Below, piece after piece: positions 1,235-26,468 of a stretch of 33,561 bases of DNA; the stretch's first letter is position 1, and each line of letters opens with the position of its first letter. Origin of the DNA: Gemmatimonadota bacterium (lineage in GTDB: Bacteria; Gemmatimonadota; Gemmatimonadetes; Palauibacterales; Palauibacteraceae); NCBI GenBank assembly GCA_023554245.1, contig JAMJQL010000148.1, positions 1 to 33,561 of the forward strand, read 5' to 3'. The notes under the pieces were generated by a model that made no database searches, had not been told where the DNA came from, and saw only the letters and a list, made by a program, of their open reading frames with translations. Both the position numbers and the translations under genes were made by a program.

Positions 1235-3524
<2,290 letters not shown>

Positions 3525-3525
3525 G

Positions 3526-4509
3526 ATGGAAACCCGACGTCCGACGAATCCGGCAGCGGAGGAGATCCTCGGCGGGTACTTCCCGGTGCTCGACCACGGC
3601 TTCGTGTCGCTGATCGACTACATGGGAAGCGATGAGTCCATCGAGCAGGCGGCGCGCGTCAGCTACGGGTTCGGAACCCGTAAGACGAGTGCCACTCGGG
3701 GGCTGATCCGATACCTGCGTCGTCACAGGCATACGACCCCCTCCGAGATGGTCGAGCTGAAGTTTCACTGTGCGATGCCGATGTTCGTCGCCAGGCAGTG
3801 GATCCGGCATCGGACCGCGTCCGTGAACGAGTACAGCGGACGCTACAGCCTTATGCCACTGCTCTTCTATCGCCCCGGGTACGAGCAGTTCGCCATGCAG
3901 AGCGAATCGAATCGCCAGGGACGGGAGGGAGAGCCTGCGGGAGCCGAGGTCTACGGGGAGGCCGTGCGGCGCTGGGATGAGCTTCGCCAGTCCTCGGCTG
4001 ACACCTACGGATGGCTGGTCGGGGAAGAAGTCGCGCGAGAGCTGGCCCGGATCGATCTGCCGCTGTCGACCTACACGCAGTGGTACTGGAAGATCGACCT
4101 CCACAACCTGTTTCACTTCCTGAGCCTTCGCGCCGACCCGCACGCACAATGGGAGATCCGGGCCTTTGCCGAGGTGATGGCGGGTATGCTGAAGCGTGTC
4201 GCTCCACTCAGCTACGAGGCATGGCTGGACTACGAGTTCTGCGGATCGCACATGAGTCACGGAGAGCTCGAAGTGATGCGTGCCCTGCTGGTCGCGGACG
4301 ACGAGGAGCTATCGGTGAGATCCGACGCGCCATCACTTTCGCTCGAGCGCCTGAAGTCGTTCGGGCTCTCGGCGCGCGAGGCGCGTGAACTTCTCCACAA
4401 GCTGGGGCCCGCCAGGCGACCGGACTTCGAACTGAATCTCTCCGAAATGAAGCCGGCGGAGGAGTTCGAGAGCCGGATGCGAGAGGCCGTTCCCGGGGAC
4501 TTCGAGTGA
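3526..4509 (+). CDS. thyX: Flavin-dependent thymidylate synthase ThyX
   Basis: ThyX makes dTMP from dUMP using methylenetetrahydrofolate and FAD/NADPH, independently of ThyA. The 327-aa product contains the signature RHRx7SxR exactly: R94-H95-R96, seven residues, S104-G105-R106. It is preceded by the conserved PMFVARQWIRHRT context. A second conserved His-rich block is KIDLHNLFHFLSLR. The protein is longer than the ~220-250-aa ThyX of Thermotoga or mycobacteria and belongs to the longer version with a C-terminal extension. The ATG at 3526 begins one nucleotide after the gyrB TGA; an upstream in-frame start would overlap gyrB and lacks support. The gene sits in a replication block, which fits a DNA precursor role. 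No thyA or folA is seen in the window. Confidence 0.95.
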   Translation: METRRPTNPAAEEILGGYFPVLDHGFVSLIDYMGSDESIEQAARVSYGFGTRKTSATRGLIRYLRRHRHTTPSEMVELKFHCAMPMFVARQWIRHRTASVNEYSGRYSLMPLLFYRPGYEQFAMQSESNRQGREGEPAGAEVYGEAVRRWDELRQSSADTYGWLVGEEVARELARIDLPLSTYTQWYWKIDLHNLFHFLSLRADPHAQWEIRAFAEVMAGMLKRVAPLSYEAWLDYEFCGSHMSHGELEVMRALLVADDEELSVRSDAPSLSLERLKSFGLSAREARELLHKLGPARRPDFELNLSEMKPAEEFESRMREAVPGDFE

Positions 4510-4643
4510 ACCGGAGGCACTTTACCGCCGTTCGTTCGTAGAACGGGAGGATGGCGTGCGGGGCAGGGCCCCGACGCCGCGGCTTCGCAGGGGCGGAGTC
4601 CGCGTGATCGGTGGGTGTGGCGGCTACAGGTGGAGGCTCTCTC
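4510..4643. other. Intergenic region between thyX and the secreted trio
   Basis: This 134-bp gap holds two small inverted repeats. One has arms CCGTTC (4528-4533) and GAACGG (4541-4546) with a 7-nt loop. The other has arms CGGGGC (4559-4564) and GCCCCG (4568-4573) with loop AGG. Neither is followed by a T tract, so they are not convincing intrinsic terminators. A GGAGG at 4632-4636 serves the next gene. No convincing promoter hexamers were found. Confidence 0.5.
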
Positions 4644-5711
4644 ATGTCCGGTCTGGCTCGCAGGGGACACGCACGCGGGACGCGCTGCGACGGCTCGACG
4701 CCCGAGCAGAGCATTCGATTGGCTGCGCTGTTCCTGGTCTTTTCGCTCCCCGTCTATCCAGCACTGCCCCGAGCGGCTCATGCGCAGGGGTCGGGTGTTT
4801 CGACCCAGGACGCCTTCTCGCAATTGGAATCGAGCGCGGGGAGCCGAAAGGCGGGAGCATTTCCCTTCGACTACCAGCACCTGGTCTTCTACCCGTCGGC
4901 GGCCGGTGAAGTCGATCTGTGGACGGCAGTCAGTGTGCACGCAGGCCGCGTTCGGGGCGTATTCGAAGGCGGTTGGAAGTACGAGCTCGAACTTCGGACG
5001 ATCATCTATCGCGACGGTGAAGAGATCGCCCGTGACGAGTCGCGCGTTCGGCACTTGCTCAACGCGCTCATCCCGCCCAGGACCACGGATGGATTCCCGA
5101 TCCAGACCCGAATCCGGGTTCTTCCGGGTGAGTACAGGTACAGGATCGAGGTACGGGATCTCAACTGGGAGGGAGATCGGGCTCTGAACGTTCAGGAGGG
5201 AGAGGTCGTAGTGCCTCCATTCGACCGAACCGGTCCGTTCGTCAGTTCCGTAGCCGTCGCGGCGGACTCGGGGGGCGCCTGGAGTCCATCTCCCGGCGTC
5301 GAACTGAAGCTGAACGCCGCGAAGATGGTACAGACGGATGCGCGGCCCTTCGTCTACTTCGAGGTATATGGGCTGACGCCCGGCGAGACGCACAGGGGAG
5401 AGGTGCGGCTCGTTTCGAATTGGGCGCCGATGGGAAAGGGAGAGACCTTCACGGGTGTCCGGCAGCCTTTCCAGCTCCAGTATAGAGGGACGACGCCCGA
5501 TGAGCCTGAGCGCCCTGTACGGTCAGTCCTGCGGCTCGAAATGAAGGACACCCGGCCAGGTCCATACAAGGTGCTCGTACGCTTTACGGACGCTGCGACG
5601 GGTGAGAAGACCGAGGTGCGAGCGACTGAGATCAGGGTGCGAGATCCGGAAGACCGCGGCGCGGAACAGCCGATCGCAGAGGTCGGAGACGAGGTAAGGG
5701 GAGGACGATGA
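4644..5711 (+). CDS. Secreted protein, C-terminal module of the GWxTD-associated trio
   Basis: The 355-aa product has a basic N terminus, a hydrophobic stretch (LAALFLVFSLPVYPALP) and an AHAQG signal-peptidase-like site near residue 48, so it is probably exported. The mature part has two beta-rich halves. Residues ~60-195 contain LPGEYRYRIEVRD, and residues ~200-330 begin with SSVAVAADSGGAW. Both halves align by eye with the C-terminal parts of the two following proteins (for example SDVAVASDSGGSW and SDIAVAPDSGGAW). It lacks their N-terminal helical and GWxTD-like region. The ATG at 4644 is chosen because GGAGG (4632-4636) lies 7 nt upstream; a GTG at 4611 is an in-frame alternative. Its stop overlaps the next start (ATGA), indicating coupling. 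The molecular function is unknown. Confidence 0.8.
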   Translation: MSGLARRGHARGTRCDGSTPEQSIRLAALFLVFSLPVYPALPRAAHAQGSGVSTQDAFSQLESSAGSRKAGAFPFDYQHLVFYPSAAGEVDLWTAVSVHAGRVRGVFEGGWKYELELRTIIYRDGEEIARDESRVRHLLNALIPPRTTDGFPIQTRIRVLPGEYRYRIEVRDLNWEGDRALNVQEGEVVVPPFDRTGPFVSSVAVAADSGGAWSPSPGVELKLNAAKMVQTDARPFVYFEVYGLTPGETHRGEVRLVSNWAPMGKGETFTGVRQPFQLQYRGTTPDEPERPVRSVLRLEMKDTRPGPYKVLVRFTDAATGEKTEVRATEIRVRDPEDRGAEQPIAEVGDEVRGGR

Positions 5712-7807
5712 TGCGGCGATCGAGGCAGCGAATTCGACGGAATCGGTTTCTCGAGCTTCCCCTGCGCGCCGGATTGATCGCGGCGGCTGCAATTCTGGGG
5801 CTCGGACCGACCGGAGTCGAAGGCCAGACGATGCCGACACAGGTCTACTTCGATCTCGGCAACGCGGGGCACGAAAAACTCGCCAAGCGGATCTCGAAGA
5901 AACTGGAACTTCGGGCCGACCCCGATGGAGACGACGTCGTCGGGCTTCTGAAGCGTTGGGAGGAAGAGACCGGCGGGCCGGTGACGGGTTGGGATCAGGT
6001 AGCCGTGGCGCGCCTGTGGATTCGGGCCGACAATCCCGATTCGGCCCAGGTGGCCCTCGATCTTGCCCGCAATTCGGGTGACGTGCCCGAGGCGGCCCTT
6101 CTGCTGGATGAGGCCCGAATAGAGTTCCTCCGGGGCAATCCGGATCTTGCGGCGGCAGCCTACTGGAAGGGCTGCCGATCCGCGGATGAGGCCGCGTCAC
6201 TGGAATACTGGCTGGACATCGAGTCGCTGGCGACGCCGGCCGAAATGGAAGAATGGGATCGGTTTCGACGGCTTCCCGTTCCACAGCGCGACCTCTGCGC
6301 CCAGTTGCGCCGCTTCTGGGCGGAGCGTTCGCTGGCGTCGGGCTTGCCGCTCGACGCCCGGATGAGCCTGCACTACGAGAGGGTTCGCCGCGCGATGGAC
6401 GTCTACCGAAGACGCGGTGGAAAGAAATCGCCCACGTTCACCAATGACCTCGGTCGACCCCGCAACGCGATGTTCGATGATCGCGGCCTGATCTTCGTGC
6501 GTTTCGGAGAGCCGGATCGCGTCACGTCTTTCGCGGGCAATCCTTCTCTCCCTTCGGATATCGTGAGCGCAGAGTGCTATCAGCCCAACGAGTCCTGGGC
6601 CTACGATTATCCGGGCGCGACGAGGGTCTACCACTTCAGTGCCTCGGGCGGCATCGACGATTACTGGTTGATCGAGAACCTGGGCCTGGTATATCGGTGC
6701 GGAAACCCGACGGCCGGCGCGAGCGGGACCGGCGTCAGGGCGCGCCTCACTCCCGTCAACGAGAATCGGTTCGTGCCGATGGGGACAGCGGCGGCCCTGG
6801 TTCTGACCGATCTGTACATGTCCCGACAGGGCCTGGACACGCGGTACGCGCAGGCGGCGTCCCGCATGTCCGACCGCAGCGCGCAGGTGACCCTCAACAG
6901 CTCGGGAGGCAAGGCCCTCGAGGCGACCAAGGTGCTGCAGGAGGAGCGGATCTGGACCCGGGAGGACGGGGAGTTCGCCATCTCCACGATACCCGAGCGT
7001 CCGGAGGTGAAGGAAGACGTCCGGATCCTGATCGAGGAGCTCCAGTATCTCGCCGTCGATGGTGATTCCAGCCGCGTGTGGCTCAACGGTGTGGTCGAGG
7101 GACAGAATCTGACACCGGCGGCGGAACCCGGCGGAGGCTACCGTTACCACGTGGATGCTCGCTGGGTTCTCGTTGACGAGTTCGGTGAGCTGCGACGCGT
7201 GCAGTCGAGCTTCGAGGCGGTCTCACGACAGCGACTCGGGCGGGACCAGAGCATACCCGTCCGATTGGCGGTCGAACTCCCGGCTGGAGAGTACCGGTAT
7301 ACCTTCATCGCGCGGGATGGCTTCGATGGGTCGGTGCAGGGGAAACCGAGCGGGAACTTCCACCGCGGCCAGATCCTGGTGCGCAGCTTCGCGGTGGCGA
7401 TTCCGGACCTGTCGGACGTGGCGGTCGCCTCGGATTCCGGCGGCAGCTGGCAGCCCGCGGGCCCCGGTGGCACCGTCGTCGGCATCCGCCCGAGTCCGGC
7501 CCACCTGACCGGTCCGGACGGTGTCGCGTTCGTCTACTTCGAGACCTATGGCCTGGGACCGGGCGCGCGCTACACGACCCACGTGCGGCTCGAGCCGCTG
7601 GATGGGGATGGCGATCCATTCGATCTCTCGTTCCCGGGCGAAGCGCCGATGGAGCCCGGGCCACGGGTGGGACGAGTCCTGCGGCTCGACCTGTCCGACT
7701 CGGAGCCCGGCACCTACCGCATGTCGCTGAGCGTCGAAGACGACTCGCGGGGCGAACGCACTCTTCCGTTCGACACGGAGATCGTGGTTCGCAATCAGCG
7801 GAACTGA
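5708..7807 (+). CDS. GWxTD-like domain secreted protein (trio member 2)
   Basis: The 699-aa protein has an export signal (hydrophobic residues ~17-38 ending VEGQ). An alpha-helical, TPR-like region follows (~40-220), including ADNPDSAQVALDLA. A segment resembling the GWxTD family core comes next: FDDRGLIFVRFGEPDR at ~256-271, then NESWAYDYPGATRVYHF at ~294. The last ~260 residues form two beta-rich modules, the final one starting SDVAVASDSGGSW (~569). The literal GWxTD residues are replaced by MFDDRG. GWxTD proteins are known from Gemmatimonadota and Acidobacteriota but have no assigned function. A strong GGGGAGG at 5698-5704 precedes two tandem ATGs (5708, 5711); the second has better spacing. 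It overlaps the previous gene by 4 nt and is followed 4 nt later by its paralogue. Confidence 0.82.
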   Translation: MMRRSRQRIRRNRFLELPLRAGLIAAAAILGLGPTGVEGQTMPTQVYFDLGNAGHEKLAKRISKKLELRADPDGDDVVGLLKRWEEETGGPVTGWDQVAVARLWIRADNPDSAQVALDLARNSGDVPEAALLLDEARIEFLRGNPDLAAAAYWKGCRSADEAASLEYWLDIESLATPAEMEEWDRFRRLPVPQRDLCAQLRRFWAERSLASGLPLDARMSLHYERVRRAMDVYRRRGGKKSPTFTNDLGRPRNAMFDDRGLIFVRFGEPDRVTSFAGNPSLPSDIVSAECYQPNESWAYDYPGATRVYHFSASGGIDDYWLIENLGLVYRCGNPTAGASGTGVRARLTPVNENRFVPMGTAAALVLTDLYMSRQGLDTRYAQAASRMSDRSAQVTLNSSGGKALEATKVLQEERIWTREDGEFAISTIPERPEVKEDVRILIEELQYLAVDGDSSRVWLNGVVEGQNLTPAAEPGGGYRYHVDARWVLVDEFGELRRVQSSFEAVSRQRLGRDQSIPVRLAVELPAGEYRYTFIARDGFDGSVQGKPSGNFHRGQILVRSFAVAIPDLSDVAVASDSGGSWQPAGPGGTVVGIRPSPAHLTGPDGVAFVYFETYGLGPGARYTTHVRLEPLDGDGDPFDLSFPGEAPMEPGPRVGRVLRLDLSDSEPGTYRMSLSVEDDSRGERTLPFDTEIVVRNQRN

Positions 7808-7811
7808 TCCG

Positions 7812-9776
7812 ATGCCTTCCGTGCGCATGCGTCGGCTGGTCGCTGCCGTCGTCTGCATGGCCGGGCTGGTGGCGGCCGGTGAGACAAGCGCGCAGTCGAT
7901 GCCGGGTCCGGTCTATTACGACCTGTACGAGCGTGGTGCAGGTGACCTGGCGGAACGGATGCAGCGCCGACTCGAACCTCGCGCCGATCCAGACCGCGGT
8001 GACGTCGAAGACCTGCTCAGGCGCTGGGAGCGATCCACCGGCGGGCCGCGCGACAGCTGGGACTGGCTGGCGGTTTCCCGGCTATGGGTGCGGGCGGGAG
8101 ATGCCGATCGGGCAGCGGATGCTCTCGAACGCGCAGGGGAGGGCATTCCCGACGCACTCCGCCGGCTGGAGCTGGCACGAATCGGATTCCTCGAGGGACG
8201 TGACGACGCCACCGTCCACTGGTGGGCAGCCTGCGCCACCGCCACCGAGGAATCCGCTCTGGAAGCATGGACCGATCTCGTTCCGCTGGCTACTCCCGAT
8301 GAGATAGAGGCCTGGGACCGGTTTCGCGCGCTTCCCGCCGGTCAACGGGACGATTGCGCATTCTTCCGCCGCTTCCTGAACCGACGCGCGATCGCGTCCG
8401 GCCTGACGCCCGACGCGCGTCTCGAGCAGCACTACCGGCGACTCCGGCATGCCCGGGATCTCTACCGCAGACGCGGGAAGGAGACCGGCACCACGACGAT
8501 GCGCCACGGGCTGCCCCGCAGCCCGGCCTTCGATGACCGTGGAACGCTCTACCTGCGAATGGGTGAACCCGATCGTTCTGCCTCGTTCCAGGCCGACGAG
8601 TGCTATGAACCGAACGTCACCTGGGCCTACGAGGATCCGGACGGGATACGGCTCTACCACCTTTCGTCGCTCGGCGGCACCGATGACTGGTGGCTGCTCG
8701 AGAACCTCGCAGGCGTGTTCCGCTGCCCCGTGGACCCCGCCACCGGTCGGATCATCCGCACTCGAAATCCGATGGTCGCCCTCTCACCGGTACTGCCGCT
8801 GATCCCGGCCTGGCTTCTGGCGGATCTGTACAACTCCCGGTCCGTTCTCGACCCGGAATACGCTCGCATGGCCAACCGTTTCGACCGGAATCGGACGATC
8901 GAGCAGCTGCAGATCGAAAGAAATATGACCGGGGCGGATGCCCGTACCGCGATCGACGGGATACCCGAGCGGCCTGACGTGGACCTGGCCCTGAACTTCG
9001 ACCGCGAGTGGCTTCAGTTCCGGTCTCCGCGTCCGATGCAGACGCGGGTCTGGGTGAACGTGGAGCTGCCGGGAAGCGAAGTCGAAGCGGTGATCCGTTC
9101 CGGGATCAGTCCGCGTCTAGAAGCCGTGTTGACCCTGCTCGACGAGGATGAAGAGGTCCTCGTGACCGTTCCGGCGGAGTTCGACCTCGATCCTGCCGAA
9201 GCGTCCGATCCGAACGCGGTCCTCGGTTTGAGAATCCCTGCCGAGGTGCCTCCGGGGCGGTATGCCACCCTCTTCCAGGTTCGGTTTCCGGCATCGGAGG
9301 ATGGCCGCGCCCGGGGCAACTTCGTGGCAGATTCTCTCGTGGTTCGCGACTTCGGCGGGGCGCTGCCCCTGCTCTCCGACATAGCGGTCGCACCGGATTC
9401 CGGCGGAGCCTGGAGACCACGCCCCGGACTGGCCATGCGGCCGTCTCCATCGCATCGGACCGGCGCAGATGGCGTCGCCTGGATCTATCTCGAGGCATAC
9501 AACATGACGCCCGGCGGAGCGTACACGGCCCGAGTACGACTGCAGGAAGCAGAGGCCGTTGGCACCGATCCGCCGGCATTCGAGCAGGAGTACTCGGGCA
9601 CGGCCGCGTCGGGGGCGCGAATCCTGTCGCCGGTGATTCTCCGCCTCGAGCTGAACGAGGTGCCGGCGGGCGATTATGAGCTGAACGTTCGCCTCACCGA
9701 CAGTGCGACCGGAGTGCGAACTCTCGATTCCAGGACGAGGCTGGTGATCCCGGCGAGCGTCGACGCACGTCCTTAG
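7812..9776 (+). CDS. GWxTD-like domain secreted protein (trio member 3)
   Basis: The 654-aa protein is a full-length paralogue of the preceding one. A signal peptide is clear (basic start, hydrophobic ~9-23, TSAQS cleavage region). Parallel landmarks follow: VYYDLYERG, RADPDRGDVEDLLRRWE, LATPDEIEAWDRFRALP, HYRRLRHARDLYRRRG, then the GWxTD-like core FDDRGTLYLRMGEPDR (~240-255). VTWAYEDPDGIRLYHL comes next. The C-terminal beta modules include SDIAVAPDSGGAWRP (~522). It starts 4 nt after the upstream stop with only a weak ribosome binding site, so it is likely part of one operon. It converges with gyrA; a small CCGAG/CTCGG hairpin (9778-9790) lies just past the stop. The role is unknown; an envelope or extracytoplasmic location is inferred. 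Confidence 0.82.
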   Translation: MPSVRMRRLVAAVVCMAGLVAAGETSAQSMPGPVYYDLYERGAGDLAERMQRRLEPRADPDRGDVEDLLRRWERSTGGPRDSWDWLAVSRLWVRAGDADRAADALERAGEGIPDALRRLELARIGFLEGRDDATVHWWAACATATEESALEAWTDLVPLATPDEIEAWDRFRALPAGQRDDCAFFRRFLNRRAIASGLTPDARLEQHYRRLRHARDLYRRRGKETGTTTMRHGLPRSPAFDDRGTLYLRMGEPDRSASFQADECYEPNVTWAYEDPDGIRLYHLSSLGGTDDWWLLENLAGVFRCPVDPATGRIIRTRNPMVALSPVLPLIPAWLLADLYNSRSVLDPEYARMANRFDRNRTIEQLQIERNMTGADARTAIDGIPERPDVDLALNFDREWLQFRSPRPMQTRVWVNVELPGSEVEAVIRSGISPRLEAVLTLLDEDEEVLVTVPAEFDLDPAEASDPNAVLGLRIPAEVPPGRYATLFQVRFPASEDGRARGNFVADSLVVRDFGGALPLLSDIAVAPDSGGAWRPRPGLAMRPSPSHRTGADGVAWIYLEAYNMTPGGAYTARVRLQEAEAVGTDPPAFEQEYSGTAASGARILSPVILRLELNEVPAGDYELNVRLTDSATGVRTLDSRTRLVIPASVDARP

Positions 9777-9823
9777 CCCGAGGGTCTCGGAGCGGGACTG
9801 CGGCAGTCGACTTCGCCCGACGC

Positions 9824-12403
9824 TCAGCTTCCTCCTTCGAGCTCGAGCTCGACCTGCCCCGGCCCGCTATCCCCGTCCTGCTCTGCGGAGACCGCAGCTT
9901 CGCCCGAGGGCTCCGTTTCGGACTCGTCGATCCGAGTCGGGATCTCTATCGCCGGAAGCTCCTCGTCCCCGGCACCTGATGTAGACCGCGAACGCAACGG
10001 GTGCACCGCGATCAGGGGACCGGCACGCTTCGCGATCTCGGGAATCCGGACGCTCGCTCCCCGCCGCGGGCGTTCGCTGAACCGATCGGCATCGAGCGGA
10101 ATCGACTCGCCTCCGGCCAGCTCCACCACCACCCGGTCACCCGGATGGGCCTCGACAACGGCCACGAGGGCACCCGACGTTCCCCGCTCGGGGAGAATCG
10201 TCACTCCCTTGCCGGCCCGACCCTGTCGTTTGACCTCGGTGTACGGCACCCGCTTCGCATGCCCGTTCGCGGTCAGAGCGGCCAGCGAAGCATCCCTGCG
10301 AGGCATCAGGGCACTGACTACCGAGTCCTGCTCGTCGAGATCGATGCCCTTCACCCCCCGGGCGGTTCGCCCCATCGGTCGGATATCGTCCTCCGCGAAC
10401 CGGATCACCTGTCCCAGGCGGCTGGCCAGCACCACGTCTCCCTGCCCCCGGGTGAGGTGGGCTGCAAGCACCCGATCGCCCTCTGACAAGCCGGTTGCCC
10501 GGATTCCTCCACTCCGGATGTTGGCATACTCATCCAGGGCAGTCCGCTTCACCTGACCTGCTACAGTGGCGACCAGCACCAGTCGCCCGGGGTCGAATTC
10601 ATCAACCGGGATGACGGAGACGATCCTCTCGTCCGGCTCGAGCGTCACGTGTTCAGCAAGCGGACGACCCCGGGAGCTTCGGGTGCCGGGGGCCAGGTCG
10701 CACACCGGCACCGAGTGCACGGCTCCCAAGTCGGTGAAGCACAGGAGCTGCGAGTCACCTCGCGCGACGAAAGCCTGGGAGACGAAATCTCCCTCCCGTT
10801 CCTCCATTGCCTCGGCGCCTGCCACGCCGCCCCCGGACCCTCGAACGGTCTGTGCCTTCACGAATCCGCGACGGCTGAGCATGACGAGCGCGGACTCTCC
10901 CCCGTTGCCCGACGGCAGCGGATACGGCTCGTTCTCGTCGAGGACTTCCGTGCGCCGTACATCCCCGTAGCGGGCTACGATGTCGGTGAGTTCCTCTAAC
11001 AGCAGGGACCTGCGCGCGGAGTCCTCCTCCACGAGGTGGCGCAGTTCCTCGATCCGGGCGATGAGCGAGTCCAGCTCGTCCTTCAACTTGCGACGCTCCA
11101 GCTGAGTGAGCCTGGCCAGACGCATCGCGAGGATCGCCTCGGCCTGCCTGTCGGACAGCCCCAGTTCGGCGCACAGGCGATCGGCGGCCGCCTTCGGAGA
11201 GGTGGATGCCCGGATCAGCTCGATGACCCGATCGATGTCGTCAAGGGCGGTCAGCAGGCCCTCCAGCACGTGCGCCCTGTCCTCCGACTTCCTCAGCTCG
11301 TACTCGGCTCGTCTGCGGATTACCTCGAGCCGATGGTCCACGAAACTCGACAATGCCTGCTTCAGGTTGAGCTGCTCCGGCCGGCCGTCCACGAGGGCCA
11401 GCATGATCACGCCGAACGTGGTCTTCAGCTGTGTCTTCAGAAACAGGGTGCGGACCAGCTTGTCCATGTCCGCATCGCGCTTGAGCTCGATCACGAGGCG
11501 GAGCCCATCACGGTCAGACTCGTCGCGCAGATCGGTGATCGCATCGGCACGTCCGGCCCGGACGATCTTCGTGATCTGTTGAATGACGCGCGACTTGCTG
11601 ACCTGATACGGAAGCTCGGTGACGACCAGGGACTTCTTTCCGTAACTTCCTTCCTCGAGGTGCATGCGTGCACGGACTTCGATCAGGCCGCGGCCGGTCC
11701 GATAGGCATCACCGATTCCTTCCCAGCCCCAGATGTAGGCACCGGTCGGGAAGTCGGGACCTTCGATGAGCTCTACGAGGTCGTCCACCTGACAATCGGG
11801 GTGCACGATCAGGTGCTGGGTCGCGGTGAGAAGCTCCCGGAGGTTGTGCGGCGGGATCTTCGTGGCCATGCCGACCGCGATCCCGTCCGAGCCGTTCAGC
11901 AGCAGATTGGGCAATCGCGCCGGTAGTGATGTCGGCTCCTCCAGCCGACCGTCGAAATTCGGGACGAAGTCGACGGTCTCCATGTCGATGTCGGTCAGCA
12001 ATTCCAGCGAAATCGGCGCCAGCTTCGCCTCGGTGTACCGGTAGGCAGCCGCTGAATCACCGTCGATCGACCCGAAGTTGCCCTGTCCGTCGATCAGCGG
12101 GTAGCGAAGCGAGAAGTCCTGCACCATCCGGACGAGCGTGTCGTAGACCGCGCTGTCGCCATGAGGGTGGTACTTGCCGAGAACGTCACCAACGACCGTG
12201 GCGCTCTTCTTGTGGTCCCGGTCCGGGAGGAGTCCCAGCTCGTACATGGCGTACAGTATGCGCCGGTGCACGGGTTTCAGCCCATCCCGGGCGTCCGGGA
12301 GGGCGCGCTGAACGATCACGCTCATCGAATAGTCGATGAACGAGTCTCGCAGCTCTTCCTCGATCAGGCGGGGAACGATTCGTTCCTTGTGAGCGGTTTT
12401 CAT
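9824..12403 (-). CDS. gyrA: DNA gyrase subunit A
   Basis: GyrA is the DNA cleavage/religation and wrapping subunit of gyrase. Numbered from the ATG at 12403 (859 aa), the catalytic tyrosine is Y123 in AYRYTE. The quinolone-determining region reads [10 protein letters not shown] with S84 and D88, the residues associated with susceptibility. The C-terminal beta-pinwheel carries a GyrA-box variant QGRAGKG at about 727-733, which supports GyrA over ParC, and the protein ends in an acidic tail. The ATG at 12403 gives an N terminus ([22 protein letters not shown]) that lines up with standard GyrA. A GTG at 12487 would add 28 Pro/Asp-rich residues. Neither start has a strong Shine-Dalgarno. The gene lies downstream of rho and a 140-aa unknown on the same strand. 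Confidence 0.96.
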
Positions 12404-12538
12404 GAGCCGGGCTGCATTCTCCGTCGGGTGTTCGGGGTCGGGTTTCGGGTCACCTTCGGCAAGGTCGGGGGGGGCAGAGAACGGCACAAGGGCGACAGCA
12501 GGATCGATTCGGAGCGCGAGTCGTCCGGGAACGATTTC

Positions 12539-14851: not shown

Positions 14852-15817
14852 TCAGAACAGGCGGATCCGCAGCCATGCCAGCGGATTTGCCCCCAGCTCC
14901 GTGGTCAGTGAGTCGAGAGCGGCACGCGTTCGGTGAGCCGCTGCGCTCAGAGCCGAGTCCTCCACGGCTCGACCGACCGAGCCTTCCGCGGCGCCGATCC
15001 GCGCGGCAATCCCACTGGCTCTCAGACGCAGGCTCTCGAGCGCCACGCCGACAGCGCGAGCCGAGTCCAGGGAGGACCGCATCGCGTCGGACTCGAGCAA
15101 CTCCTCGATCAGAGCTGAAGATCGAGCCAGGGTCGCCTTGAGGGAGTCGTCCGCTGCGATTCGGTGCAGTCCCCGACCGTCACTCCACGCAGTGGAAATG
15201 TGCCGAGCATGCACCCGAGCCGAATCCAAGCGGGACAGGAAGCCCTGGTCTGCCATGAACCGGGCTGCCGAGCCGTCGCCCTCGACTGCCTCCTGACGCA
15301 GCCTCGAGACGTCCTCCGCCGCGGCCACGAAAGCGTCTCGAACCGAGTCGGCCATCGAACGGAAGTCTTCCAGGTCGGGCCGCTGCGCGGCTCTGAGCGT
15401 GTCTCCGTCTCCGACCCTGGATGCTCCTGGAGATCCGGCCCCGATCTTGACCACAGAAGGCGCCATGAGCCCCGAGGCCCCGATCGTCACGCGCGCATCC
15501 TCCCTCAGGTAGGGGATCGCCTCACGCAGCAACACGGCATCGATCACGACTCGCTCGTCAGGCGGGCCACCTGGCTCGAGAAAGCGGAGCGCGAGGACGC
15601 GGCCCGACGGCTTGCCCGCCAGCCAGACAGCCGAACCGCGCTCCAGTCCCCCTACCTCGGGCGCGAGGATGGTCAGGCGCGGGCCTTCTGCGGTCGCTCG
15701 ACGCACGGTGTCGCCGAAGAAGGTGACGAGCGAAACGACGACCAGGGCGGCGAGGATGAGCAGCCCGGGCCAGACGTCGGTCCAGGCCGGAAGCAGTCCT
15801 GATTTCCACGGGTCCAT
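14852..15817 (-). CDS. MCE/MlaD family protein (orphan, divergent from mlaEFD)
   Basis: The 321-aa product has one N-terminal transmembrane segment (~17-35, WPGLLILAALVVVSLVTFF). An MCE-like beta domain follows (~45-140), with PRLTILAPEVGGLERGSAVWLAG, then GASGLMAPSVVKIG. The rest is a long Asp/Arg/Ala-rich helical tail. MCE proteins form hexameric rings that bind phospholipid between the membranes. It is clearly related to the MlaD at 17489-18478 in layout but divergent in sequence, for example WLAGKPSGRV where MlaD has STRGVAIGTV. It starts with ATG at 15817 without a good ribosome binding site. The gene is read away from mlaE across an 83-bp gap, suggesting shared or divergent promoters. 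Partnership with MlaE-MlaF is inferred. Confidence 0.8.
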   Translation of the reverse strand: MDPWKSGLLPAWTDVWPGLLILAALVVVSLVTFFGDTVRRATAEGPRLTILAPEVGGLERGSAVWLAGKPSGRVLALRFLEPGGPPDERVVIDAVLLREAIPYLREDARVTIGASGLMAPSVVKIGAGSPGASRVGDGDTLRAAQRPDLEDFRSMADSVRDAFVAAAEDVSRLRQEAVEGDGSAARFMADQGFLSRLDSARVHARHISTAWSDGRGLHRIAADDSLKATLARSSALIEELLESDAMRSSLDSARAVGVALESLRLRASGIAARIGAAEGSVGRAVEDSALSAAAHRTRAALDSLTTELGANPLAWLRIRLF

Positions 15818-15900
15818 GACGCATGGTATTCGAGCCGGTGCCCGTCGTCGAGCGGCTGAGCCTGCTGGCCGGTCGCGAGAGCGACCTGTAGTGTCATGAC

Positions 15901-16677
15901 ATGGGCATCGATTCGGCAGTCGCCTGGATCGGGAAGACGACGATCGAGGGCGTCGCGCGGGTTGGCCGGGCAGCTGCGTTCACGGGCGCGATCGCTCGCT
16001 CGCTTCTCGATCTGAGAACCTGGGTTCCGCAGGCGGCTTCTCAGGTGCGCCGCATCGGAGTCGACTCGGTACCGGTGGCTCTGTTCATAGCGGTCTTCAC
16101 CGGAATCGTGCTCGCACTTCAGAGCTCTTACACCTTCACGGGGGTCGTCCCGCTCTACTTCGTCGGCGTGCTCGTGGCGAAGTCCATCATGCTCGAGCTC
16201 GGACCCGTGCTCACGGGTCTCGTGCTCTCCGGAAGGGTGGGAGCGAACATCGCCGCGGAGATCGGAACGATGCGGGTTACCGAGCAGATCGATGCACTCG
16301 AGATGCTGGCGTACGAACCGGTTTCGTATCTCGTGGTCCCGCGCGTGGTGGCTGGCATCATCGCGTTCCCGGTGGTGACGGCTCTCGCTCTCGTAGCCGG
16401 GATCGGGGCCGGCTGGCTGACATCCGTCAACCTCCTCGATCTCTCCACCCAGGAGTTCATTCGGGGTGTCCGGATGTTCTACGAACCGTTCGATCTCCGT
16501 TATCCCCTGATCAAGGCGGCCAGCTTCGGCGCGGTAGTCACAACCGTGGGGTCCCTCTACGGTTTCTACGCGCGCCGCGGCGCCGAGGGAGTCGGGATCG
16601 CGGCAACGCGCGCCGTGGTCGTGGGAGCCATGCTGATTCTGGTCCTGGATGCATTCTGGGCCGTCGTGCTGCTCTGA
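15901..16677 (+). CDS. mlaE: MlaE-type ABC transporter permease
   Basis: MlaE is the inner-membrane permease of the Mla phospholipid transporter, working with the ATPase MlaF and the MCE ring MlaD. The 258-aa protein is strongly hydrophobic with about five membrane helices. It carries the family block ELGPVLTGLVLSGRVGANIAAEIGTMRV followed by EQIDALEMLA, which identifies MlaE. The length is standard (~260 aa). The ATG at 15901 follows a GTCATGAC palindrome and lacks a Shine-Dalgarno. mlaF begins 3 nt after the stop codon. No mlaB or mlaC homologue is in the window, so the periplasmic carrier and STAS subunit must be elsewhere or absent. Confidence 0.93.
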   Translation: MGIDSAVAWIGKTTIEGVARVGRAAAFTGAIARSLLDLRTWVPQAASQVRRIGVDSVPVALFIAVFTGIVLALQSSYTFTGVVPLYFVGVLVAKSIMLELGPVLTGLVLSGRVGANIAAEIGTMRVTEQIDALEMLAYEPVSYLVVPRVVAGIIAFPVVTALALVAGIGAGWLTSVNLLDLSTQEFIRGVRMFYEPFDLRYPLIKAASFGAVVTTVGSLYGFYARRGAEGVGIAATRAVVVGAMLILVLDAFWAVVLL

Positions 16678-16680
16678 TCG

Positions 16681-17427
16681 ATGATCCAACTCGAAGCCGT
16701 CCGTAAGTCGTTCGGGTCACAGATCGTGCTGGATGGTGTCGATCTGGAGATTGCCACCGGGGAGACGGTGGCCGTGCTGGGGCGATCGGGGTCCGGGAAG
16801 AGCGTTCTGCTGAAGCAGGTCGCGCGATTGCTGCGTCCCGATGGCGGGGTGGTCAGAGTCGGCGACGTGGAGATGTCCGGGGCCGACAAGTCGACCGTGA
16901 TGCGTGTTCGCAGCTCGATGGGCTACGTGTTTCAATTCGCCGCCCTGTTCGACTCGCTCACGATCGGGGAGAATATCGCTCTGCCGCTTCGCCGTGCGGG
17001 AATCTCTGCCGAGGAGTCCCGTACCCGGGTCATCGACGTGCTCGAGACGGTAGGTCTGCCCGACCAGTCGGATCGCTACCCGGCAGAGCTATCGGGCGGC
17101 ATGCGCAAGCGAGCCGGGATCGCCCGCGCGGTTGTAGCGCGGCCGAGCTATCTTCTGTACGACGAGCCGACGACCGGCCTGGACCCCGTCACCACGGCGG
17201 TGATCGATGGGCTGATGCTGGAGATGAAGCGGGATCTTCAGGCGACGAGCATCCTCGTGACCCACGATATCCAGAGCGCGTTTCGGGTGGCGGATCGTCT
17301 CGCGCTGCTCCACGGGGGCCGGGTTCGCTTCGAGGGGACGCCCGACGAAACGCGGAGTTCCGACGACCCGCTCGTTCGTGCATTCGTCGAAGGACGTCAG
17401 GAATTGTGGCCGCCGGATTCCGTGTAG
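16681..17427 (+). CDS. mlaF: MlaF-type ABC transporter ATP-binding protein
   Basis: This is the ATPase subunit that powers MlaE-mediated phospholipid transport. The 248-aa protein has all ABC elements. Walker A is GRSGSGKS with K40, and the Q-loop is VFQFAALFDSLT. The signature is LSGGM at ~137-141, and Walker B is LLYDEPTTGLDP with D161-E162. The H-loop is LVTHD. The FQFAALFDSLT segment and the LSGGMRKRAGIARA version of the signature are typical of the Mla/Mkl group rather than other importers. The ATG lies 3 nt after the mlaE stop, implying coupling. The C terminus FVEGRQELWPP is the usual family end. It is followed by mlaD after 61 nt. Confidence 0.95.
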   Translation: MIQLEAVRKSFGSQIVLDGVDLEIATGETVAVLGRSGSGKSVLLKQVARLLRPDGGVVRVGDVEMSGADKSTVMRVRSSMGYVFQFAALFDSLTIGENIALPLRRAGISAEESRTRVIDVLETVGLPDQSDRYPAELSGGMRKRAGIARAVVARPSYLLYDEPTTGLDPVTTAVIDGLMLEMKRDLQATSILVTHDIQSAFRVADRLALLHGGRVRFEGTPDETRSSDDPLVRAFVEGRQELWPPDSV

Positions 17428-17488
17428 CGGGCCACGGCAGAGTACGAGGAGACCAGATGCGCCGCCTGCCGAACCAGGGGGTCAGCAA

Positions 17489-18478
17489 GTGACCCGACGC
17501 AACGAGATCATCACGGGCCTCTTCGTCCTGCTCGGGATCGCGGTCGTCGCCTGGGCTTCGATCTGGCTGGCCGGTGGCCGCTGGCGGGAGCAGGGAGCCA
17601 CGATCACCGCCCGCTTCCATGGAGTCGGTCAGCTCAAGGAGGGGAATCCCGTCTCCACGCGCGGAGTCGCGATCGGCACCGTGGAGTCGATCCGGCTGGT
17701 GGACGGAGGCCTGGTGGACGTCACGATGCGGATCCGGGAGGGAGTCAGTCTGCCCGATGAGCCGGTGGCTCTCCTGCAGGCGTCGTCGTTGTTCGGCGAC
17801 TGGGAGGCCACGATCGTGAATTCCGACGAGCGGCCGGACGCGCTTCTCGATTCGGCGGTGATCGCTCCGGGCGTGATACCCGGGGCCGCCGTCCCCGAGT
17901 TCTCGAGGCTCACCGATCACACGGCCCGGATCGCAGAGAACCTCCGCGGGATTACCGACCGACTGGACCGGGCGATCAGCCAGGAAACGGCGGATCAGCT
18001 GGCCGAAGCGATCAGCAACATCAACCAGGTGACAGTCGAGCTTCGTGATCTGCTGCGCGGTCAGCGCGCCGCGTTCGATACCCTGGCCGGGGATGTGACG
18101 GCAACGGGACGTGCGGTGCGAGAGACTTCGGACGCTCTGCTCGCGACCGTGTCGCGTCTGGACTCCGCTACCTCCGGCGAACGGCTGGAGTCGATTCTCG
18201 CTGATGCCGAGGTGACGGCGAGGCAGCTCGTGAGCCTCTCCTCCGAGTGGTCGGAAGCCGGCGGCCGGGCCAACCAGGTGCTCGCCCGTGCCGACACCGC
18301 GCTCGCCCAGGCGAGCCTGGTTCTCGGCCGGATCGAGAAAGGGGAGGGCAGCCTGGGACAGCTCTCCGCTGATACGGTTCTCTACGAGAACACGGCCGCG
18401 GCCCTGTCCGAGCTGCGGGCCCTGCTGGATGAGATCAAGACCAACCCGGACCGGTATTTCAACTTCTCGATCTTCTGA
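17489..18478 (+). CDS. mlaD: MlaD-type MCE domain protein
   Basis: MlaD forms the membrane-anchored hexameric lipid-binding ring on MlaE. The 329-aa product has a short cytoplasmic start (TRRNEI), one membrane helix (~7-29) and the MCE domain (~37-118). The domain includes FHGVGQLKEGNPVSTRGVAIG, with the typical V.RGV.IGTV strand, and ASSLFGDWEATIV. A long helical C-terminal region (~140-315) resembles the coiled-coil tails of YebT/Mce-type proteins. The GTG at 17489 is chosen because AGGGGG (17476-17481) sits 7 nt upstream and the protein then begins right before the membrane helix. The long in-frame extension back to 17378 overlaps mlaF and reads as noncoding. It completes an mlaE-mlaF-mlaD operon. 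Confidence 0.92.
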   Translation: MTRRNEIITGLFVLLGIAVVAWASIWLAGGRWREQGATITARFHGVGQLKEGNPVSTRGVAIGTVESIRLVDGGLVDVTMRIREGVSLPDEPVALLQASSLFGDWEATIVNSDERPDALLDSAVIAPGVIPGAAVPEFSRLTDHTARIAENLRGITDRLDRAISQETADQLAEAISNINQVTVELRDLLRGQRAAFDTLAGDVTATGRAVRETSDALLATVSRLDSATSGERLESILADAEVTARQLVSLSSEWSEAGGRANQVLARADTALAQASLVLGRIEKGEGSLGQLSADTVLYENTAAALSELRALLDEIKTNPDRYFNFSIF

Positions 18479-20694: not shown

Positions 20695-21813
20695 TCAGCC
20701 GGAGGATCTTTCGACCACGTTCGGAGCGACCGGAGCGCCCTCACCCAGCCGTTCGACTCCGCCGACCACCACCTGCTCGCCCGCCGAGATGCCCTCGCGT
20801 ATTTCGACGAAGCCGGATGTGCGCACGCCGATACTGACTTCTTTGCGTGTTGCCGTTCCCTCGGGTGTCGCGACCCACACGAAGTCCTGCCCGGAGAGGG
20901 GCAGAATCGCGTCTTCCGGAATGACGACGGCTTCGGGCCGGACGTCCACCACGAGTCGCGCCTCGATGAACATCCCCGGCTTCAACGAACGGTCGTCGTT
21001 CTCCACCAGTGCCTTTACGGTAATCGTGCGGCCGGGCAACTGGACTCTGGGGTCGACGAAATCGACTACACCCGAGAATTGCCGTCCCGACATCGCCGCG
21101 ACCTCGAAGCTCACTTCCTGCCCGACTTCCAGCAGGCCGGCGTAGCGTTCCGGAACACGGAAGGTCGCGCGCTGAGGATCGACGGTCTGAAGCGTGGTGA
21201 GCTGGGTCTGCGGCGTAATGTAGTCGCCCACACTGACGAGGCGCTCTCCCACGACTCCCGAAAAGGGCGCACGGACCACCGTCCGCTCCAGTCTCGTCTG
21301 CTGCAGCTGGAGGTCGGCACGCGCGCTCCGGGCCGTGGCTTCGGCCTGCTCGAGATCCGCCTGCGAGGACGCGTTCCGCTCGAGGAGATCGCGAGTCCGA
21401 CTGAGCGCCTGTTCCGCCAGGTCGAGCTGAGCTTCGAGTCGCGCGACCTGCGCCACGAGCTCCGAGTCGTCGATCTTGAACAGTGGGGCACCTCTTCTCA
21501 CTTCCCGACCCTCGGAAGCGTAGATGCCGGCAAGCCTGCCCGACACTTCCGGCTGCAGACGGATCGATTGGACGGCCTCGATCTGCCCGGTAGCCCGAAT
21601 CTCCTCGAGCACCGTGTCCTGCATCGCTACCGCGACGTCGACGGGCATGGGAGGCGGACCTCCTTCTCCACCCCCCGGGCCTCCTGGTGGCCCACCCGCA
21701 GCACCGCTCTCCGAATCGCCACCGCACGCGCCGGAGATGGCGATCACCGCCACCAGTATGGTCGTCCGCCACGCCGGGAAACCCGTCGTCGCCCCGAACT
21801 GCTCCCGCATCAT
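20695..21813 (-). CDS. RND efflux periplasmic adaptor (MFP/HlyD family)
   Basis: The adaptor bridges the inner-membrane RND pump and the outer-membrane channel. The 372-aa protein starts with a hydrophobic signal ending in SGAC, suggesting lipidation at C30 although the -3 residue is Ser rather than Leu. A Gly/Pro-rich linker follows (~38-58). The lipoyl half-motifs are SIRLQPEVSGRLAGIYASEG and RTVVRAPFSGVVGERLVSVGD. An alpha-hairpin lies between them, and the beta-barrel and membrane-proximal domains follow to SGQDFVWVATPEGTATRKEV. The start overlaps the stop of the TolC-like gene (ATGA), and a second ATG follows at once. It is the last gene of the pump-channel-adaptor operon. The substrate is unknown. 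Confidence 0.92.
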   Translation of the reverse strand: MMREQFGATTGFPAWRTTILVAVIAISGACGGDSESGAAGGPPGGPGGGEGGPPPMPVDVAVAMQDTVLEEIRATGQIEAVQSIRLQPEVSGRLAGIYASEGREVRRGAPLFKIDDSELVAQVARLEAQLDLAEQALSRTRDLLERNASSQADLEQAEATARSARADLQLQQTRLERTVVRAPFSGVVGERLVSVGDYITPQTQLTTLQTVDPQRATFRVPERYAGLLEVGQEVSFEVAAMSGRQFSGVVDFVDPRVQLPGRTITVKALVENDDRSLKPGMFIEARLVVDVRPEAVVIPEDAILPLSGQDFVWVATPEGTATRKEVSIGVRTSGFVEIREGISAGEQVVVGGVERLGEGAPVAPNVVERSSG

Positions 21814-23267
21814 CGTGTCTCCGTGAGTCGTCGGCCCAGGATCGCCTCGACACCAGCGCGGGCCAGTCTAGTCGTGTAGCGCGACTGAACGAGCCCCGCC
21901 TCCGCTTCCGTCAGGTCGACCTGCGCCGTGACGAGGTCAATGATCGTCGTCGCTCCCGCCCGATACCTCTCTTCCTGCACCCTGAGGTTTTCGCGCGCGA
22001 CCAGCACGGCATTGCCTGCCAGCTCGGCACTCGCTCTGGCCGTGTTGTACGCCTGGTAGGCCTCGGCCATGTCCCGTCCGATCCCGAGTTCGGTATTCCT
22101 GCGTGCCGCCTCAGCGATCTGTCGCGCGGTGCTCGCCCGGTAGATGCGAATCTCGCGCTGGGCACCATCCCAGATCGGGAAATTGAGCGAAAGCCCGAAT
22201 GTGGCTCGTTTCGTCGCATCCGGCACGATGTCGTCGTCAAACCCGTTCCAGCTTCCGAACAAGCTCAGCGAGGGCAGATACGCCGAGCGCTCCGACTTGA
22301 ACAGTGCGTTCGTTCTCCGCTCTTCGGCCCGGGCCACCTCGACGATCGGGCTGATTGTGACCGCCTCCTCGATCGCCTGCGCCTCCGTGATCGGGAGCGC
22401 TGGGGCGGCGAGAGTGTCCAGTTTCGCAGCGTCGACCGGGCCCGGAATCCCGGTACGCCGACCGAGCTGGAGTCGCGATACCGCCACTGCCGACTCCTGG
22501 CGGAGAAAGTCCACCTGCGCTCGCGTCAGCTCCAGGAGCAACTGCAGCGAATCCGTCTGAACGGCCGCGCCTGCCAGGACGCGGGCACGGGCGACGGCCA
22601 ACTGTCCCTCGGCACGCCGTACCCGTTCTTCTGCGACGCGAAGCAGCTCGGACTGTGCCAGCACGTCGTAGTAGTCGGCTTCGGTGCCAAGGGCCGTTGT
22701 GAACCGCTGGCGCCGTTCGTTCGCAGCGGCTCCATCCACACTGGCGTTCGCAGCCTGCATGTCGAATATCCGACCCCCGCCCGCGAACAGCGTGTAGGAG
22801 CCGCTGAGACTGAACTGAGTCAGGCGGTCGGTCTCTTCGCCGGTACCGATGTTGAACTGAGGGCTGGAGTACTTGCTGAAATTCCAGCGGAAATCGACAA
22901 CCGGTAGCAGGAATGCGGACCAGGCCGACCGTCTGACCCAGTTCGCGTCTCCGACGCCTCGAAGAGCGGCGACGTAGTCCGGGTCGACCCCGGCCGCACG
23001 CTGGAGCGCTTCGGCAAGCGTCACCGTCGCCAGCGGGGTGCCCTCCGCTGATCTCCGGGCGAGCTGTGCACTCGTGAGTCCCTCCGCCGGGTCCTGCACG
23101 ACGGTCGGCTCCTGCGCCACCACCGGCTGCATACCGGCCGATGCGAGCAGCGAGCCGATTGCCAGCCACACGACCGGCGCCGTGCGCCTCGGTGAGCCCG
23201 AAAGCCCGGCGCGCGTAGCTGTTCCCCTGGACTCAGTTCCGGGGCGGCGCAGCCTGGACCGGCTCAC
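21810..23267 (-). CDS. TolC-family outer-membrane efflux channel
   Basis: The 485-aa protein is a TolC-like channel that forms a trimeric beta-barrel and periplasmic alpha-tunnel. An unusually long basic N terminus precedes a hydrophobic stretch (VVWLAIGSLLASAG) and a VVAQEP cleavage region near residue 51. Duplicated long-helix regions follow, with the typical end-of-repeat signature VQEERYRAGATTIIDLVTAQVDLTEAEAGLVQSRY near the C terminus. It starts with GTG at 23267, overlapping the pump stop (GTGA). The downstream adaptor overlaps it by 4 nt, so all three proteins are probably made in coupled fashion. A second TolC-like gene begins at the right window edge. Confidence 0.92.
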   Translation of the reverse strand: MSRSRLRRPGTESRGTATRAGLSGSPRRTAPVVWLAIGSLLASAGMQPVVAQEPTVVQDPAEGLTSAQLARRSAEGTPLATVTLAEALQRAAGVDPDYVAALRGVGDANWVRRSAWSAFLLPVVDFRWNFSKYSSPQFNIGTGEETDRLTQFSLSGSYTLFAGGGRIFDMQAANASVDGAAANERRQRFTTALGTEADYYDVLAQSELLRVAEERVRRAEGQLAVARARVLAGAAVQTDSLQLLLELTRAQVDFLRQESAVAVSRLQLGRRTGIPGPVDAAKLDTLAAPALPITEAQAIEEAVTISPIVEVARAEERRTNALFKSERSAYLPSLSLFGSWNGFDDDIVPDATKRATFGLSLNFPIWDGAQREIRIYRASTARQIAEAARRNTELGIGRDMAEAYQAYNTARASAELAGNAVLVARENLRVQEERYRAGATTIIDLVTAQVDLTEAEAGLVQSRYTTRLARAGVEAILGRRLTETR

Positions 23268-26200
23268 GCCTCCGCCTCCACCGGCTCGAGCTTCTCGACG
23301 CGGCGCGCCACCCTGGCCCGTGCCTCGTCCAGAAGGATGTAGACGACCGGAACGAGATAGAGGGTCAGGACCGTGGAGAACAGGAGCCCTCCTACGATCG
23401 CATAACCGAGGGGCCGCCGGCTCGCAGACCCGGCCCCGAGACCCAGTGCGATCGGCGTCAACGCAATGACTGTCGCCACCGAGGTCATCATGATCGGACG
23501 GAGCCTGATGCGCCCCGACTCGAGCATCGCTTCGGTTCCGCTCATTCCTTTTCGTTTCAACTGGTTCGCGTACTCGACCAGCAGAATCGAATTCTTGGTG
23601 ACGATTCCGATCAGGAGGATCATCCCGATCTGGCTGAACAGGTTCAGAGTAGATCCCGCCACCAGCAGGGTGGCCAGTGCCCCGGTCACGGCCAGCGGAA
23701 CGGCCAGCAGGACCGTGAAGGGGTGAACGAGAGACTCGAACTGGGCTGCGAGAACCATGAACACGACGATCAATGCCAGCACGAAGGCGAAGTACAGGGC
23801 GTTGCCGCTCTCTTCGAGCTCCCTCGATTCTCCGGCCAGGGCGATGCTGCTGCCGGGCGGCAACACCTCTTCCGAAATGGCGTGAAGCGAGTCGATCGCC
23901 GAACCCAGCGGGAATCCATCCGCCAGGCTGGCCGACAGGGTGAACGACCGGACTCGCTCGAAGTGATTCAACTGACGCGGACCGACGCCCTCCTCCACCC
24001 GCGCGATGGCATCAACGGATACGAGCACTCCATCACGGCCTCTGACGTAGAGGTCCGACATGGCCTCGGGGGTGGATCGGGCCTCGGGCTCGAGCTGGAT
24101 GATCACGTCGTACAGCTTGTTGTCCCGGGTGAACGTGCTCACACGCTGACCGCCCAGCATCACCTGCAGCGTGCCGGAGATATCGGCAATCGCGATGCCA
24201 AGGTCTTCGGCGCGATCCCGCTCGTACTCTACCGTCAGCTCGGGTTTGTTGACGCGCAGATCGGTGTCGACGTTGATGAGGCCCGGGACCTGCCTTGCCC
24301 GGGCCGTCATCCGGTCCATCCCGGCGGCGAGCGAGTCGAAGTTCGGATTCCGCACGACGTACTGCACGGGACTGCCGAACCCGATTGCCGCAGGCGCACT
24401 GGCGAATGCCAGAACTCCGGGTATCCCGAACAGTCGGGGCCGGATTTCGTTGGTCACCTCCTGGGCCGTGCGCTCACGGTCTTCCCAGTCGACAAGCCTG
24501 GCGAAGATGATACCCCGGTTCACGCTGCCCAGGAAGCCACCGACGATGCTGAAGTAGCTCTGGATCTCGGGAACGCTCCCGAGCACCTGCTCGACCTGCA
24601 TCTGGTACTCGTTGGTATATTCCAGCGAAGCACCCTCGGGTGCGATCACGAAGGTGAGGATCGCCCCGCGGTCTTCCGGCGGGAGGAACTCGCGCTCCAG
24701 ACGGTTGAACACCAGGACGGCGAGTCCAACCACCAGTACGGCTCCGAGAACGACGAACGCGCGATGGCGCACCGCGAACTCGAGGCTCTTCTGATACTTC
24801 TCCGCGATGGAGAGGAAGGTGTTTTCGAACATCAGGAACAGCTTGCCGTGCGTCTTGGGAACGCGGAGGATCTTGGCGCAGAGCATCGGCGTCAACGTCA
24901 GCGCTACGAAACTCGAGACGATCACGGCACCCGTCAGCGCGATTCCGAACTCGTTGAACAGACGTCCTGCCGTCCCCTGCAGAAAGGCGAGCGGGGTGAA
25001 TACGGCTACCAGCGCGACCGTCGTCGCAATGACGGCAAAGGCGATCTCGCTGGTTCCCTGTTGAGCCGCGACGGTCGGGCTTTCGCCCAACTCCTCCTGA
25101 TGTCGATAGGCATTCTCCATCACGATGATCGCATCGTCCACCACGATTCCGATGCCGAGAATCAGCGCGAGTAGAGTGAAGTTGTTGATCGTGAATCCGA
25201 GAGCGTACAACACCGCGAACGCGGCGAGAATCGAGGTCGGGATCGCGAGGCCCGGGATGATCGTCGCCCTGAAGTTCCGCAGGAATACGAAAATGATGAC
25301 GATGACGAGGATGCCCGCGAGTACCAGCGTTTCCTCCGCCTCCTTGATCGACCGACGCACGAAGAGCGCCTGATCGAAGCCGATATTGATCGTAACGCCG
25401 GGCGGCAGCGCTGCCTGAATCGCGGGGAGCTCCTCCCGCACCGCATCGGAGACCTCGATCAGGTTGGCCTTCGACTGACGGATCACGCCGATCGCGATGG
25501 CCGGCCTGCCGTTGTACCGGAGCGCAGATCGATAGTCCTCGGGTCCCAGCTCGACCCTCGCGACGTCCTGAAGCCGGACGACCTGCCCGTCCTGGCTGGA
25601 GACCACCAGGTTCCCGAACTCTTCGGGTGTCTTGAGCTCGCCCAGGGACCGTACGGTGAATTCCCGCCGTTCCGACTCGATACGTCCGGCCGGAATCTCC
25701 ACGCTCCGCGTGCGGATCGCCGCGCGCACGTTCTGAACAGTCAACCCTCGCGCGGCCAGTTCCCTGGACTTGAGCCAGATGCGCATCGAGTAGCGCCGCT
25801 CCCCGGCGATCAGCGCTCGGCCAACGCCGTCCAGGGATTGCAGCCGACGCTTGACCTCGCGGTCGGCGACATCGGAGAGTTGCAGCAGGTCGTAGTTCTC
25901 GGCCGAGAGCGCGAGCCACAGAAAGGGCTGTGCATCGGATTCCTGCTTGGCGACTACCGGGTCGAGAACATCTTCCGGAAGTCGGCCCCGAACTCGCGAA
26001 ACGACGTCGCGGACGTCCTGTGCGGCGAGTTCCAGGTCCCGATCGAGTTCGAATTCGAGACTGATATTGGTGGACTGCTCGGAGCTGGTACTTCGGAGGG
26101 TCCGCACGCCGGGGATGGTGCTCAGCTCCTCCTCGAGCACGTCCGTGACCGTCGACTCCATGACGCGCGGGTTGGCACCGCGCAGAAAAACGGAGACGGA

Positions 26201-26335: not shown

Positions 26336-26340
26336 CCGGA

Positions 26341-26345
26341 CCTCC
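26341..26345 (-). promoter_or_regulatory. Ribosome binding site supporting a TTG start for the RND pump
   Basis: On the minus strand GGAGG ends 5 nt before the TTG at 26335-26333. The resulting protein begins MFLSDTSIRRP, the common start of this family. The ATG 24 nt upstream (26359) has no comparable site. Confidence 0.65.
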
Positions 26346-26468
26346 GTGATTGCGTACATTCCACGGCTCGACGCGACCCGTGAAGAACACGCGGGGCGAA
26401 CGAACCGTTGGGTCGACTGTAGATGAGAGCGACGGGGTGGCCTATGCCCCGGCGCGCTGATCGGCCGT

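Follow-up and report, generated by a model that had tools for sequence, protein, structure and literature searches.

Organization of the operon

Within the window, i.e. the complete stretch of 33,561 nucleotides that was analysed, three consecutive co-directional genes, here named P1, P2 and P3, encode exported proteins (Table 1). P1 and P2 overlap by four bases (ATGA at 5708-5711), and a gap of four bases separates P2 from P3. Type I-like signal peptides, each with a hydrophobic N-terminus and an AxA-like site, were recognized by eye in all three proteins, with predicted cleavage between AHA and Q in P1, VEG and Q in P2, and SAQ and S in P3. The initial annotation of this DNA as three consecutive exported proteins whose genes overlap or touch could thus be confirmed, and the open reading frames were found at the coordinates it had given. 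The gene overlap suggests that the proteins are produced together. They are probably located in the periplasm. A promoter and terminator scan of window positions 4300-9950 gave no signal above chance. The genome that carries the operon comes from an uncultured Gemmatimonadota bacterium, is 2.9 Mb in size and 92% complete, and has MAGs of this phylum as close relatives in public records.

Table 1. Features of the P1-P2-P3 operon and its flanking genes (positions in the window)
Feature	Position	Strand	Basis
thyX, conserved upstream neighbour, preceded by gyrB	3457..4509	+	synteny in L040-L043 and L046; named by sequence and position
P1: exported, 355 aa, signal peptide followed by the two-sandwich (B) module only	4644..5711	+	open reading frame
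P1 B module	about 4896-5684	+	hhalign against P2/P3 modules, E=1e-40
P2: exported, 699 aa, signal peptide, helical repeats, GWxTD-type domain, two sandwiches	5708..7807	+	open frame, TIGR04514, AlphaFold2
P2 helical-repeat (TPR-like) solenoid	5837..6403	+	AlphaFold2, mature residues 5-193, pLDDT mostly >90
P2 GWxTD domain, degenerate motif AMFDDRG, TIGR04514	6239..6604	+	hmmscan; profile E=1e-16 against canonical domains
P2 C-terminal B module: two Ig/FN3-like beta-sandwiches, SDVAVASDSGGSW motif opening the second	6998..7804	+	AlphaFold2, Foldseek, hhalign
P3: exported, 654 aa, same architecture as P2	7812..9776	+	open frame, TIGR04514, sequence comparison
P3 GWxTD domain, degenerate motif PAFDDRG, TIGR04514	8277..8633	+	hmmscan
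P3 C-terminal B module with SDIAVAPDSGGAW	8970..9773	+	alignment, hhalign
gyrA, conserved convergent downstream neighbour	9824..12487	-	synteny in L040, L043, L046 and L047; named by sequence

Two further gene groups were observed downstream in the window. Positions 14852-18478 carry genes for MlaD-like proteins together with permease and ATPase genes (assigned by eye) of a lipid-asymmetry-type transporter, and an RND efflux operon consisting of adaptor, TolC-like channel and permease is located at 20695-26359.

Homology and domain architecture of the three proteins

P2 and P3 share 44% identity over 675 residues (E=6e-132). P1 aligns to the C-terminal third of P2 with 36% identity over 221 residues (E=7e-26) and also matches P3 (E=1e-21). 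The part common to all three proteins comprises the C-terminal ~260 residues and is predicted to form two beta-sandwiches. Comparison of P1 orthologues with the C-terminal modules of the P2/P3 type by hhalign (E=1e-40) showed that the shared beta module proposed in the initial annotation is homologous at profile level and larger than originally noticed. No Pfam or NCBIfam match was obtained for P1, and no GWxTD region was found in it by Pfam/NCBIfam scans or by alignment. The earlier description of three homologous GWxTD-like proteins therefore holds for their homology and for the GWxTD-like nature of P2 and P3, which also share the long N-terminal helical region, while P1 consists of the two-sandwich module without GWxTD.

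For the GWxTD region, TIGR04514 scores just below its curated cut-off of 28 bits were obtained by hmmscan (27.4 for P2, 27.8 for P3); the scores were 33.7 bits when neighbours in frame were included and 30.3 bits in the genome search. At profile level, the GWxTD domain of the P2/P3 type matched that of canonical members with E=1e-16 over 111 columns (hhalign). The literal GWxTD motif has mostly disappeared from both proteins and only its D-R-G part is kept, and the residues R, H, R, DDRG, R, G, P, W and Y are invariant across 24 relatives.

A structure model of mature P2 was calculated by AlphaFold2 with 24 aligned sequences (mean pLDDT 86.5, pTM 0.85). In this model the solenoid is followed by the GWxTD region (mature residues 219-282, one helix and three strands), a helical linker and the two sandwiches at 401-519 and 533-655. 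Foldseek searches with the whole model returned mostly Ig/FN3-like sandwiches, and the top match, RbmA (E=9e-8), fitted poorly at the global level. A sequence profile search for solved homologues yielded none of value. The layout of one helix and three strands led us to consider a BamE/SmpA-like fold for the GWxTD domain; as the isolated domain model gave no significant match in the PDB (best E=0.9), this fold is not claimed.

The canonical GWxTD proteins of Gemmatimonadota carry their two sandwiches first and the GWxTD domain last. Their N-terminal region matched the C-terminal module of P2 and P3 with E=1.6e-16 over 222 columns (hhalign), while ten column-shuffled controls of this comparison gave E values of 0.1 or worse. 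These module profile matches define three layouts in the family: sandwiches-GWxTD in the canonical members, solenoid-GWxTD-sandwiches in P2 and P3, and sandwiches alone in P1. The operon, the homology of its products and their architecture can be regarded as firm.

Conservation and origin of the operon

A search of 60 related genomes showed that the P1-P2-P3 order is kept in three genera, the window's own and two others of the family. In public contigs (L043, L046 and partial contigs), the order gyrB-thyX-P1-P2-P3 continues into convergent gyrA and rho. The triple is absent from sister genera, in which gyrB, thyX and gyrA are kept with unrelated genes between them. The interval between thyX and gyrA (window positions 4510-9823) appears as a variable slot, occupied by other genes in sister genera (L056, L057, L061, L063). 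The genes thus co-occur in related genomes, as expected from the tandem operon described in the initial annotation.

Pairwise dN/dS values of about 0.07-0.25 indicate that the three genes are under purifying selection. P1 was also considered as a decayed pseudogene, an explanation rejected in view of its low dN/dS and of a frame that is open and conserved in its orthologues. Phylogenetic analysis of the sandwich module placed P1, P3 and a fourth paralogue (P4) in supported groups of their own; the P2 group was less supported (74/93), and P2 and P3 were closest to each other as sister groups. These groupings indicate that the triple predates the split of its three genera.

Other families of the class contain single-gene relatives with the TPR-GWxTD-sandwich architecture, and P1-P2-P3 is a lineage-specific expansion of this wider Gemmatimonadota family, whose members are usually found as single genes. 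The genome that contains the window encodes the fourth paralogue (contig C19) and two canonical GWxTD genes (contigs C49 and C62). The fourth paralogue adjoins a gene for a small exported protein (L006:1272-2972), and in the sister species it shares a single frame with an N-terminal CarboxypepD_reg domain (L049:1581-4400). The idea of an undescribed extracytoplasmic system, put forward in the initial annotation, therefore stands as far as export and a conserved operon are concerned, but the system is not an isolated one, with single-gene relatives being widespread in other families. Neither the GWxTD domain nor TIGR04514 or PF20094 was named in this sense by any paper in the literature searched, in line with the annotation of the proteins as having no known function.

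Genomic neighbourhoods of the relatives

Among 119 genomes, 18 PorV orthologue loci from five families were identified at E<=1e-38. According to the coordinates, a canonical GWxTD gene is the next same-strand gene after the PorV/PorQ-family gene in 16 of them (e.g. L065:494-3157, L075:11290-14013, L079:2180-4852, G131:C44, G117:C154 and G119:C64), the exceptions being G035 and one of the two loci of G062. The canonical gene on C62 of the window's genome directly follows a PorV/PorQ-family gene (NF033709, 127.9 bits, cut-off 90), whose own upstream neighbour encodes a type IX sorting-like tail. Among the loci examined, such pairs are often found downstream of a large gene whose product has a type IX sorting-like C-terminus. 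The distance from sprA to such a gene is 12-22 kb in several genomes, while in others it is far off. Genes of the P2 type were found near a PorV-GWxTD pair in three genomes (L075, L080 and L070 in G043, G087 and G044).

A type IX system has been described as possibly present in Gemmatimonadetes (PMC11285876), while in an earlier survey its occurrence was confined to Bacteroidetes (PMC4793230). A gene for SprA, the outer-membrane translocon of type IX secretion, is present in the genome of the window (G000:C39:6447-10868, TIGR04189, 454.6 bits with neighbours in frame). Of the 119 genomes, 62 carry both SprA and GWxTD, 18 only SprA, 11 only GWxTD and 28 neither (Fisher 3e-7). Outside the window's family (f1), co-occurrence in this set was not significant (p=0.15), so the type IX link of P1-P3 themselves is weak. 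A strict co-dependence of SprA and GWxTD was considered in view of a nearly perfect pattern in a set of 22 genomes (14 with both, seven with neither, one with only GWxTD and none with only SprA), and was rejected since significance was lost in the larger set once that family was left out. No match to the type IX component families (PorU/V/Q/Z, SprA, sorting tail) was found in P1-P3, and the operon is flanked by the housekeeping genes gyrB, thyX and gyrA, not by PorV, SprA or a receptor.

Other relatives adjoin different functions. In a MAG recorded as Bacteroidetes, SusC and SusD genes are followed by a small lipoprotein-like gene and, next in the row, a GWxTD relative (L054:1496-9277). A tandem TPR-GWxTD-sandwich pair directly follows an N-acetylmuramoyl-alanine amidase gene, with a PP2C-like gene before it (L051:6737-12928), a P2-like gene adjoins another such amidase (L069), and a canonical GWxTD lipoprotein gene lies between a large exported TonB-type-receptor-like protein and a lytic transglycosylase (L064:2475-9374). 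Owing to these amidase, PP2C-like and lytic transglycosylase neighbours, the signal is a mixed one. Taken with the PorV/PorQ-linked and Sus-type loci, the neighbourhoods of the relatives suggest that the GWxTD family serves outer-membrane machines.

Proposed role and alternative explanations

The explanation favoured here, possible though still somewhat short of probable, is that P1-P3 form a periplasmic heteromeric scaffold complex that serves an outer-membrane beta-barrel machine. According to this model, the three proteins would be soluble in the periplasm, made together from one transcript and assembled at the outer membrane. In P2 and P3, binding of a client or partner protein would fall to the N-terminal helical solenoid, the GWxTD domain would represent the conserved functional core of the family, and the C-terminal sandwich pair would offer a rigid contact surface. 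P1, possessing the sandwich pair only, could accompany them as a subunit that caps the sandwiches of P2 and P3 or pairs with these. Candidates for the machine served include a secretion apparatus of type IX (PorV/SprA-type) and a TonB/Sus-type receptor. That the proteins form a complex is a reasonable inference from the coupling of the genes and the fixed sandwich-only form of P1; the outer-membrane machine as its target is suggested by the neighbourhoods of relatives and not by that of P1-P3.

The main rival is an expansion of paralogues without a dedicated complex. In this case a TPR-GWxTD-sandwich gene would have been duplicated beside thyX, the P1 copy would have lost its N-terminal half, and the proteins would act separately in the role of the single-gene relatives. 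Such an ordinary origin agrees with the common occurrence of single-copy relatives in other families, with the tandem pair that arose elsewhere (L051), with the sister-group position of P2 and P3 and with the confinement of the triple to three genera whose sister genera have other genes in the slot. It accounts less readily for a P1 that has the sandwich-only size in every orthologue seen and is under purifying selection, and for an order and tight spacing maintained across genera, and we regard it as somewhat unlikely. An accessory role in peptidoglycan remodelling, in which P1-P3 would recruit periplasmic amidases and lytic transglycosylases or hold them back, was suggested by the amidase genes beside P2-like genes (L051, L069) and the lytic transglycosylase gene beside a canonical lipoprotein gene (L064). 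Most of the examined loci had no such cell-wall neighbours, however, while canonical members are more regularly linked to PorV, and domain scans found no peptidoglycan-binding domain, making this role improbable. Even less credence is given to a cell-surface or matrix scaffold, with the sandwiches forming extracellular adhesive fibres similar to RbmA, which is built of tandem FnIII domains and occurs in Vibrio biofilms. RbmA ranked first in the fold search with the complete P2 model, but the agreement is confined to the generic tandem-sandwich fold (TM 0.34 on the target, rmsd 11), the fold matches are mainly Ig/FN3-like proteins of unrelated functions, and P1-P3 have no detectable type IX sorting tail.

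Returning to the scaffold complex, its extension to the entire family is more doubtful than the complex itself and also slightly less likely than the separate action of paralogues. GWxTD proteins would then be an unrecognised accessory set of outer-membrane machines (type IX translocon, Sus-type receptors) in the Bacteroidota-Gemmatimonadota group, and P1-P3 a heteromeric, module-permuted derivative with one sandwich-only subunit and two solenoid-bearing subunits. The two opposite module orders, the fixed three-gene version and the PorV/PorQ adjacency together offer a first testable role for GWxTD, and the PorV-GWxTD pairs provide bench-accessible relatives in which this role can be tested.

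Comparison with known systems

P1-P3 are not PorU, PorV, PorQ or PorZ of the type IX attachment complex, and none of these is encoded in the window; the connection consists in GWxTD relatives encoded directly after PorV/PorQ-family genes. No GWxTD protein has been described as a type IX component in the literature searched. RbmA of Vibrio cholerae, a biofilm scaffold of tandem FnIII domains, has the generic tandem beta-sandwich fold in common with P2, but it has neither the helical nor the GWxTD part, and its global superposition on the P2 model is weak. No homology beyond the generic sandwich fold was found, RbmA being missing from the sequence profile search. The single-gene relatives (e.g. 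L021, L023, L025 and L027) and the paralogue on C19 (G000:C19) share the architecture of P2 and P3, including the invariant DDRG..R.G.P and W.Y. They differ from the operon in their location, being usually alone or paired and away from thyX-gyrA, with no P1-like companion seen. Compared with P2 and P3, the canonical GWxTD proteins (TIGR04514, PF20094; PorV-linked type) have the reversed module order and an intact GWxTD motif and are without a helical solenoid, and P1 is without GWxTD altogether; the GWxTD domain and the two-sandwich module are common to the canonical proteins and P2/P3.
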